From the NCBI RefSeq assembly GCF_040954835.1, contig NC_090698.1:866501-930500 (forward strand): DNA of 64,000 nucleotides. Direction: 5' to 3'. The position numbers and the translations under genes are program-made. Within the stretch, counting starts at the first letter, position 1; each line of letters opens with the position of its first letter. The notes below the pieces were generated by a model that saw only the letters and a list, made by a program, of their open reading frames with translations, was not told the origin of the DNA and did no database searches. Positions 13,101 through 15,959 of the stretch are shown here, in pieces. This DNA comes from Lepisosteus oculatus (lineage: Eukaryota > Chordata > Actinopteri > Semionotiformes > Lepisosteidae).

Positions 13101-15959
13101 GAGCCAGTCTATCCCATTTGGTTGTTAATTAGTAGCTAACTGATCTGAGGACCTCATCTAGCTATTTCCTGAAAGGAGCCAGTGCACCATCTTCAATATC
13201 ATGATTTGATAGCTTGTTCCATACTTCCACAACCCTTTGTGTAAAGACTTTTCCCGTGACAGTCACTTGCAAGTCTTTCTCTTCCTTTGTGAAAAAGTCA
13301 TCACCCTGCATGACTAAATCAATAAAAACTGGAAGTGAAGGGCCTTAATTCTCTAGGGTTGAAGCAGTCGGCTCCTTGCGGTAACTCTGCTCACTGTGTC
13401 CTCCTGCTACAGGGCAGCCAAGACAATATCAGCATCACGCTCATCTGCTTCCCTGGCGCCCCCCAGGTGTCAGCGGAGGCACTGCAACGCGAGGCGGAAC
13501 TGGAGGAGCTGCTGGAGAGCAGAGTGGCAGGTAAGAGAGGGGAACCCACGTCTGTGGGTGTCATGAGTGTTTATTAACTCCATCACGAAATCACACACAG
13601 TGGAAGGACAGCTCCTTCAGCCCAGATGGAAAACTTTCACTCAGGGTTAAGATATTATATTAGATATTAAATATATTAGATATTAAACATTCACTTAGGG
13701 TGGAGCAGTGGCACTGTGGCTAAGGATCTGCACCTGCGGCCGGCAGAGGAATCCTACTCTGTTGGGCCCCTGAGCGAGGCCCTTAACCCCAACTGCTCCA
13801 GGGGCGCTGTACAATGGCTGACCCTGCGCTCTGACCCCAAGCTTCTCTGTCTGTCTGTGTGTCTCATGGAGAGCAAGCTGGGGTATGCGAAAAGACAAAT
13901 TCCTAATATAAGAAATTGTATAGGGCTAATAAAGTGATCTTATCTTATTAGGTCCAACGTTCATACCCATGGTGAGATGTTTGCAAGGCATGAAGGTAAA
14001 GAGGAAAAGCTTGTTATCAGAACACCACTTAAACACACACACGCCAGTTCACATGACTGTACTGTAATTCCTGCCTGGAAACACTCTGGGCAAGGCTAGT
14101 GCACATTAGGATTATTGCCTACTGGGGGCGCTGACTGCCCTCTGTGTCCCCGCTGTGCGCAGATATCTTCGAGGAGCAGCACGAGGAAGGGCTGCCAGAC
14201 CTGCTGTACGTGATGAAGTACATGTCATCTGAGAGGATACCAGGGCTGCCACCTGGAGGGGGCATCACCAGCAAGTGAGTCGGGCAGCACGCCGGGGAGA
14301 GAGGGGGAGAGGCAAGAGACCAGGCCTGGGGAAACCGCAGTCTAGATGCACTGGGATTCTCCATTCCAGTGATGGAAATAAGACTCCAATTGCACTGCAG
14401 TTTGATGCATTTCAGCTTTTCTAAGTTGCAGGTTCTTAGTCAGATAGTACTGATGGAGCAGAAAGTGAATGCGTTTGCACTGCGAAGACGGTCTTTTCTG
14501 CACCTTTCAACCATGCGACTGACAGCTATAAAGGCAGGGCTTCAGAAAGCATGAGGACCTCTGTCTCAGTCGAGGAGGACGAGGAAGCAGCAGGGAACTC
14601 TGCGGCTGGCAGAGCCGGAGGTCTCAGGGGAGAGGGGGCTGAGCTCGGACCCGCGCAGGGCCGGAGTGTGAGTGGGTGGACTGATTGGCTTTGTCTTCCG
14701 CCCTCAGGAGGAACTGCATCGCTGCTGCCTATTACAAGCTGAGAGAAGAATACACACCCAAGGACACGCTGGTAAGCTCCTGGACATCTGGATCTCACCT
14801 GGAGAGAACAACCTGAGGACACTGACACCACTGTCTCTCCCTCTGTCCCTCACCGCAGACCGACACCACTGTCTCTCCCTCTGTCCCTCACCGCAGACCG
14901 ACACCACTGTCTCCCCCTCTGTCCCCTCACCGCAGACCGACACCACTGTCTCTCCCTCTGTCCCTCACCGCAGACCGACACCACTGTCTCTCCCTCTGTC
15001 CCTCACCGCAGACCGACACCACTGTCTCTCCCTCTGTCCCTCACCGCAGACCGACACCACTGTCTCCCCCTCTGTCCCCTCACCGCAGACCGACACCACT
15101 GTCTCTCCCTCTGTCCCTCACCGCAGACCGACACCACTGTCTCTCCCTCTGTCCCTCACCGCAGACCGACACCACTGTCTCTCCCTCTGTCCCCTCACCG
15201 CAGACCGACACCACTGTCTCTCCCTCTGTCCCCTCACCGCAGACCGACACCACTGTCTCTCCCTCTGTCCCTCACCGCAGACCGACACCACTGTCTCTCC
15301 CTCTGTCCCTCACCGCAGACCGACACCACTGTCTCTCCCTCTGTCCCTCACCGCAGACCGACACCACTGTCTCTCCCTCTGTCCCTCACCGCAGACCGAC
15401 ACCACTGTCTCCCCCTCTGTCCCCTCACCGCAGACCGACACCACTGTCTCTCCCTCTGTCCCTCACCGCAGACCGACACCACTGTCTCTCCCTCTGTCCC
15501 TCACCGCAGACCGACACCACTGTCTCTCCCTCTGTCCCTCACCGCAGACCGACACCACTGTCTCTCCCTCTGTCCCTCACCGCAGACCGACACCACTGTC
15601 TCTCCCTCTGTCCCTCACCGCAGACCGACACCACTGTCTCCCCCTCTGTCCCCTCACCGCAGACCGACACCACTGTCTCTCCCTCTGTCCCTCACCGCAG
15701 ACCGACACCACTGTCTCTCCCTCTGTCCCTCACCGCAGACCGACACCACTGTCTCTCCCTCTGTCCCCTCACCGCAGACCGACACCACTGTCTCTCCCTC
15801 TGTCCCCTCACCGCAGACCGACACCACTGTCTCTCCCTCTGTCCCTCACCGCAGACCGACACCACTGTCTCTCCCTCTGTCCCTCACCGCAGACCGACAC
15901 CACTGTCTCTCCCTCTCCTGTCATTCCAGTTCCACAGCGGATCAGAGGACTCCAATTAG
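9206..15959 (+). CDS. PPM1N: PP2C-type Ser/Thr phosphatase, PPM1N-like
   Basis: Mn/Mg-dependent protein phosphatase of the PPM1A/B/N group, 436 codons in five exons: 9206-10192, 13413-13530, 14163-14274, 14708-14771 and 15930-15959. All junctions are in phase. Metal and phosphate ligands are present: R89, E93-D94 in [11 protein letters not shown]116-G117 in VYDGHAG, D290 in CDGVWD and D333 in GSQDN. The PPM1 C-terminal helical module follows, with [17 protein letters not shown] and LPPGGG. PPM1N is chosen over PPM1A/B because the gene lies head to head with RTN2, as in human. Its N-terminus is also longer than PPM1A's (about 75 residues before the catalytic fold, with an acidic run at 46-53). 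The frame is open upstream to 8870, so an earlier start is possible; GTGCCATGC at 9206 is a fair Kozak context. The human function is poorly known. Confidence 0.9.
11250..11390 (+). mobile_element. CR1-like LINE 3' remnant
   Basis: The sequence around 11270-11330 translates to a [12 protein letters not shown] stretch, and the tail AGATCTAGATGGGCTGAA matches the end of other copies in the window. Short and decayed. Confidence 0.45.
13080..13330 (-). mobile_element. CR1-like LINE 3' remnant
   Basis: Shares GTTCCATACTTCCACAACCC and CTGATCTGAGGACCTCATC with the fragment at 8205-8520, on the same strand. It lies in PPM1N intron 1 just upstream of exon 2. Confidence 0.6.
13413..13530 (+). CDS. PPM1N: PPM1N coding exon 2
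   Basis: 118 bases between acceptor gctacag and donor gtaaga. It encodes [17 protein letters not shown] and the start of the C-terminal helices, including [13 protein letters not shown]. It carries the last metal-binding Asp (D333). Confidence 0.92.
13695..13945 (+). mobile_element. tRNA-type SINE in PPM1N intron 2
   Basis: A compact repeat beginning GGGTGGAGCAGTGGCACTGT, with CCCCTGAGCGAGGCCCTTAA in the middle, GGGGCGCTGTACAATGGCTG, and a tail ending GGGCTAATAAAGTGATC. This is the architecture of a Pol III SINE known from memory in fish. No long direct repeat at the ends was verified. Confidence 0.6.
14163..14274 (+). CDS. PPM1N: PPM1N coding exon 3
   Basis: 112 bases between acceptor gcgcag and donor gtgagt. 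It encodes [19 protein letters not shown], then [17 protein letters not shown], very close to PPM1 family C-terminal sequence. It joins exon 2 through a split Asp codon. Confidence 0.92.
14708..14771 (+). CDS. PPM1N: PPM1N coding exon 4
   Basis: 64 bases between acceptor ccctcag and donor gtaagc. It encodes [21 protein letters not shown] after a split Lys codon and matches the family KRNVIxAxYNRL segment. It ends in phase 0. Confidence 0.88.
14833..15904. repeat. 28-unit minisatellite carrying a 3' splice site in each unit
   Basis: 28 complete units of 38 bp (20 copies) or 39 bp (8 copies) fill 1072 bp exactly, followed by a partial unit. Each unit has a pyrimidine tract and CAG (CCCTCACCGCAG) followed by ACCGACACCACT. 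Variants: A (38 bp), B (39 bp, GTCTCCCCC) and C (39 bp, GTCCCCTC). Their order is AAB AAAB AACCAAAAB AAAAAB AACCAA. The block B-A-A-C-C-A-A occurs twice, a sign of segmental duplication inside the array. It occupies nearly all of PPM1N intron 4. Confidence 0.95.
15930..15959 (+). CDS. PPM1N: PPM1N terminal coding exon (predicted)
   Basis: After the last partial repeat unit comes a strong acceptor, CTCCTGTCATTCCAG, then nine codons FHSGSEDSN and TAG, in phase with exon 4. Alternatively an acceptor in a repeat unit is used. From the last full unit the tail would start [15 protein letters not shown] and end at TGA 15995-15997. The choice cannot be settled by eye. Confidence 0.6.
   Translation, partial: FHSGSEDSN

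Follow-up and report, generated by a model that had tools for sequence, protein, structure and literature searches.

The minisatellite of IFI6 (6-16, G1P3) was reportedly studied by Turri et al. in 1995, under a title on splice donors. This minisatellite is described at a splice site, where it supplies several splice donors that are reported as used (PMC4526556). For ABCA7, a 25-bp VNTR is described in intron 18 with the exon 18 donor as its first two bases, together with an isoform that keeps one VNTR unit through a donor in the repeat, and with exon 19 skipping that rises with VNTR length (PMC5954066). The array described here lies in the last coding intron of a PPM1N-like gene, within a 64-kb window (the whole stretch of DNA that was analyzed, C3:866501-930500). 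Like the IFI6 minisatellite, it sits at a splice site and offers several candidate alternative splice sites; the IFI6 donors are reported as used, whereas the units of the PPM1N array are candidate acceptors in the sequence. Like the ABCA7 VNTR, the array is an intronic minisatellite with splice-site-like sequence in the repeat, but the ABCA7 repeat multiplies a donor and includes the canonical site, whereas in PPM1N acceptors are repeated and the likely canonical site lies just past the array. The array is best read as the acceptor-side mirror image of the IFI6 and ABCA7 minisatellites, which carry donors. Our search of the literature on minisatellites and VNTRs with splice sites yielded no acceptor-carrying case among the matches listed, which is not proof of absence. 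As to its origin, the array is probably the product of a local tandem expansion of the branch-point and pyrimidine segment in an 86-nt last intron, that is, an ordinary intronic minisatellite ahead of an ancestral acceptor at 15930.

Tandem Repeats Finder placed the array at 14824-15916, with a period of 38, 28.6 copies, 98% matches and a score of 2086 (threshold 50). The unit map resolved 28 complete units at 14824-15895 on the forward strand, 20 of them 38 bp and 8 of them 39 bp long; they are near-identical and run head to tail, as in minisatellites with units of roughly 10-100 bp. The preliminary description had the counts right and began the array at 14833, nine bases after its actual start. 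A partial 29th unit (15896-15929, forward strand) has its first 21 nt (15896-15916) in common with the array and then runs into the unique CCTGTCATTCCAG/TTCC of the final acceptor at 15929/15930. The array ends 13 nt ahead of the exon at 15930 and is preceded by the unique 5' part of the intron (14772-14823, forward strand, 52 nt). Read from the nucleotides, it is located between the exon at 14708-14771, with its GTAAGC donor, and the last coding segment at 15930-15959. With the array this last coding intron measures 1,158 bases, and about 86 nt once the repeat is removed. All units fall into just three sequence types (20, 4 and 4 copies), arranged from 5' to 3' as AABAAABAACCAAAABAAAAABAACCAA. 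The ten-unit block AAABAACCAA occurs twice (units 4-13 and units 19-28), and at a lag of 15 the map agrees at 11 of 13 positions. Both features are what block duplication predicts, and the repeated block suggests that the copy number of the array has changed in the past.

By its domain content, the array-bearing gene belongs to the PPM1A/B/N group of PP2C phosphatases. The joined exons give a predicted protein of 403 residues (start codon chosen, final acceptor assumed) with matches to PP2C (PF00481, E 1.3e-72) and PP2C_C (PF07830, E 6.5e-31). Its nearest solved structure is the PPM1A chain 1a6q (E 1.4e-143), and the joined exons align to PPM1A up to ...DT. These matches bear out the earlier placement of the array in the last coding intron of a PPM1-type gene, an intron that it mostly fills. 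The penultimate coding exon (14708-14771, forward strand), which is part of the PPM1A alignment, encodes 21 residues after a split K codon, closes with KDTL at 14771 and ends in phase 0 before GTAAGC; its protein match in the same genome is at C3:881203-881271. The last coding segment (15930-15959, forward strand) encodes FHSGSEDSN and a stop, and an AATAAA at 17117-17122 (forward strand) may be the gene's poly(A) signal. Among the matches listed by a search of the same genome that scored best candidates were a PPM1A-type gene with the tail DSASTDDMW (C8) and, on C17, another relative that we take to be PPM1B-type. With these two relatives elsewhere in the genome, PPM1N is the natural name for the array-bearing gene, assigned by exclusion.

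In all 28 complete units a pyrimidine tract is followed, in the sense orientation, by CACCGCAG and then ACC (CACCGCAG/ACC), and the full shared motif CACCGCAGACCGACACCACTG is likewise present in 28/28. The last AG bases of the unit acceptors run from 14858 in the first to 15892 in the final unit. Acceptors were scored with an approximate matrix of the Shapiro-Senapathy type, the consensus of which may not fit this species. On this matrix the 38-bp unit scored 8.32 and the 39-bp unit 9.62, against 7.57 for the final acceptor at 15930, and three other PPM1N acceptors scored 11.09, 5.08 and 11.33; three unit sites were scored, the remaining units being of the same sequence types. Of the 4,692 AGs on the forward strand outside the array, 98 scored at least as high as the 38-bp unit on the same matrix. 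Pyrimidines accounted for 80% of the 30 bases ahead of the last three intron bases at two units and the final site, and for 63-67% at the three other PPM1N acceptors. It is thus a fair reading at the sequence level, by this approximate matrix, that each unit is a plausible candidate 3' splice site, and the 28 candidate acceptors of the preliminary description hold. The pyrimidine richness of the stretch, together with the GCAG in the unit, is why all units look usable.

A branch-point-like CTGAC at 14822-14826 (forward strand) is the sole match in 14772-15929 to CTRAY, a general branch-point consensus that may not fit this species, and its A lies 33 nt ahead of the base that ends the AG of unit 1. 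Units after the first have CCGAC in place of CTGAC, and CTCAC occurs in every unit. The CTCAC at 15883-15887 (forward strand) is the putative branch point of the final acceptor, with its A 43 nt before the final base of that acceptor's AG; the CCGAC at 15894-15898 (forward strand) may serve as an alternative. Pairing of UCUGU with GCAGA can place the unit AG in a 5-bp hairpin (fold z-score -1.8 for a single unit and -2.3 for three units), a weak effect that might reduce acceptor use. The z-scores covered a single unit, three units and the segments 14772-14861 (+1.1) and 15858-15960 (-0.4), and the intron in full was folded with no shuffled controls. An Rfam search of 8000-25000 gave zero matches at the gathering score, and on this result and the four z-scores a structured RNA was rejected.

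One alternative takes the unit acceptors as functional competitors. The 28 units and the final site would then give up to 29 isoforms, with tail and frame set by the acceptor used and by copy number. We consider this unlikely. It is favored by the scores, which make every unit look like a real acceptor on the approximate matrix, by donor-type precedents (PMC5954066; PMC4526556), and by frames that stay open after all 28 acceptors until a stop downstream of the final one. There is no forward-frame stop inside the array, and the earliest afterwards are at 15957, 15988 and 15995. Ten unit acceptors lead to the stop at 15957, ten to that at 15995 and eight to that at 15988, with predicted tails of 34-366 aa from the unit acceptors and of 9 aa from the final acceptor. 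Tail length and frame would hence depend on the acceptor, with the 38-bp units shifting the frame, just as had been proposed. That the units contain no forward-frame stop was also stated correctly, though 10,934 of 20,000 shuffled 38-mers were likewise stop-free in every frame. The lack of stops is therefore unremarkable and expected from composition, which weighs against competing acceptors, and stop-free units were rejected as a sign of coding. A selected coded repeat was rejected as well, since 20 of the 28 units are 38 bp long and rotate the frame, which argues against selection for such a repeat and leaves none that is stably coded. The 146 residues from one forward reading of the array matched no Pfam family. 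The hairpin available to the unit AG also counts against competing acceptors, as does the reported ABCA7 isoform, which reflects retention of a single unit and not use of many (PMC5954066).

The survey of other minisatellites was restricted to arrays with a period of 20-80, at least 8 copies and at least 250 bp, and took the better strand of each consensus unit with an acceptor threshold of 8.3, the PPM1N unit's own score. An equally acceptor-like unit, on either strand, was found in 1 of 7 minisatellites from 200 kb of random genome sequence (20 stretches among 60 drawn) and in 4 of 22 arrays at six loci chosen for similarity to the PPM1N array, rates that are rough because the threshold is the unit's own score and the better of two strands was used. 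Any long minisatellite was present in 2 of the 20 random stretches, covering 5,475 of 200,000 bases, and 6 of the 7 arrays lay in L023, so that the random rate is rough and minisatellites are patchy. Within the window, 2 of the 3 long arrays, the PPM1N array included, have acceptor-like units. The acceptor likeness of the units is less special than it looks, and the view that it is special in itself was not supported by this comparison. Searching the 1.2-Gb genome with 117 array bases, by a method that returns best candidates and skips very common words, gave at least 19 matches, 10 of them at the PPM1N locus (97-100%); the other nine matches listed (73-82%) were at six places, all six within other tandem arrays. 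A dispersed repeat family was rejected, as the off-locus matches listed all sit inside other tandem arrays.

Minisatellites of comparable unit length are found elsewhere in the genome. Like the PPM1N array, they mostly have units of 30-60 bp in tens of copies, some of them acceptor-like (for example the array of an SLC3A2-like gene, and those of L009-L014 and L023); the PPM1N array differs in occupying, within a very short intron, all of the zone that holds branch point and pyrimidine tract. L023 (1-10000) and L011 (1-9900), the latter on a 52-kb contig, are packed with several different minisatellites of 30-85 bp. L023 lies about 1.1 Mb, and the 64-kb window about 0.87 Mb, from the start of their respective contigs. 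In human, long GC-rich VNTRs are enriched 21-fold within 5 Mb of chromosome ends (PMC7608644).

The PPM1N-like gene and its PPM1A-type paralogue on C8 share the position of the intron that carries the array. In the paralogue, the last coding intron is in phase 0 and lies between ...GATGACACA (DDT) and GACTCGGCATCG... (DSASTDDMW and a stop), with an acceptor score of 7.2 on the approximate matrix. No tandem repeats scoring 50 or more were present in 3.5 kb of the PPM1A-type locus or in 3.5 kb of the C17 locus. The last exons of both genes, DSASTDDMW and FHSGSEDSN, have nine codons before the stop. Their likeness in sequence is not significant, 3,166 of 10,000 shuffles scoring as well, so phase and length are the grounds for taking 15930 as ancestral. 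Given the match in both, the acceptor at 15929/15930 is likely the ancestral one, which disfavors an amplified TDTT boundary.

Such a boundary had been suggested in the preliminary description. The original acceptor and the first codons after it (TDT...) would have been copied 28 times, and the 15930 exon would have come later. Unit 1 does show a canonical layout (branch point, pyrimidine tract, CAG) that would give an 87-nt intron, and T-D spans the junction in the PPM1A tail. However, the PPM1A-type junction of this genome, DDT/DSASTDDMW, puts the T in the upstream exon, and 15930 matches the nine-codon last exon of that gene in phase and length. Moreover, the resemblance of the unit to its unique flanks was equaled by 76 of 1000 shuffles on the 3' side and by 98 of 1000 on the 5' side, which is not beyond chance at the 5% level, although 21 nt of the array recur in the pyrimidine tract of the final acceptor; the related idea that the unit AG is a copy of the present acceptor is not supported by these shuffles. 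We regard an amplified exon boundary as very unlikely.

PTB binds sites such as CTCTCT and TCTT. That the array acts as a regulatory sponge or decoy, binding PTB, PCBP or U2AF so as to slow or repress removal of the last intron, with copy number tuning PPM1N output, is highly improbable, for although the main unit is CU-rich (two CCCTC, two TCCC and one TCTCTC) and VNTR length correlates inversely with ABCA7 expression (PMC5954066), both of these PTB sites occur zero times in the main unit.

Local tandem expansion ahead of an ancestral acceptor stays the preferred explanation. Removing the repeat leaves an 86-nt intron with the GTAAGC donor, CTGAC and the CCTGTCATTCCAG acceptor in normal spacing. 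The short last intron would have gained 28 copies of the 38/39-bp unit within its branch-point and pyrimidine-tract stretch, presumably through slippage and unequal exchange. The three PPM1N introns ahead of it measure 3,220, 632 and 433 nt, and the last intron without the array makes up 86 of about 4,370 nt across the four measured introns. Since this intron is nevertheless the one that was hit, the splice-site sequence itself might have seeded the repeat.

Under local expansion, splicing would be expected mainly at the two ends of the array, at unit 1 and at 15930, with the middle units little used. The scanning view of acceptor choice is the basis for favoring these two sites. Unit 1 would have the advantage of the only CTRAY branch point, of being the first acceptor transcribed, and of an 87-nt intron with no AG between. 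Since 1,071 bases (3 x 357) separate the unit 1 acceptor from the final one, the two share a frame, which would happen by chance one time in three. Array products would retain the whole PP2C and PP2C_C domains and gain low-complexity tails of the predicted lengths. Nonsense-mediated decay should not act on a stop within the last exon, and array products, whose stop stays in that exon, should escape it, which may be the reason that the array is tolerated. Side effects of the array on the protein's tail are possible. If units are used, the locus would offer a natural test of how the spliceosome chooses among many identical, evenly spaced acceptors, whether by the nearest branch point, the first transcribed or the last before the exon. 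If they are unused, it would show how splicing can pass over 28 good-looking acceptors. In both cases, the locus suggests that an array of this kind can sit in a last intron and leave the conserved domains untouched.

The window holds two further long arrays, both probably intronic. The first is a minisatellite at 21058-22612 (46 bp, 35.5 copies) in the SLC3A2-like gene downstream, identified by an SLC3A2_N match. By eye it probably lies in an intron that runs from a donor-like GT at 20854 to an acceptor at 22658. It contains 16 CTCTCTCAG and 19 CTCTCTCGG, and its consensus unit is acceptor-like (9.2 on the approximate matrix). The other array, at 49572-49955, has an 18/33-bp unit that is not acceptor-like (1.6) and begins about 94 nt past a GTGAGT, the candidate donor of a rhodopsin-type receptor exon. 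On the reverse strand, a 253-aa open frame at 3937-4698 contains a 42-bp (14-residue) tandem repeat at 4046-4214 and had no Pfam match. Two other reverse-strand open frames, at 30827-31567 and 36143-37066, share long stretches with each other and presumably resemble the ends of a non-LTR retrotransposon reverse transcriptase.
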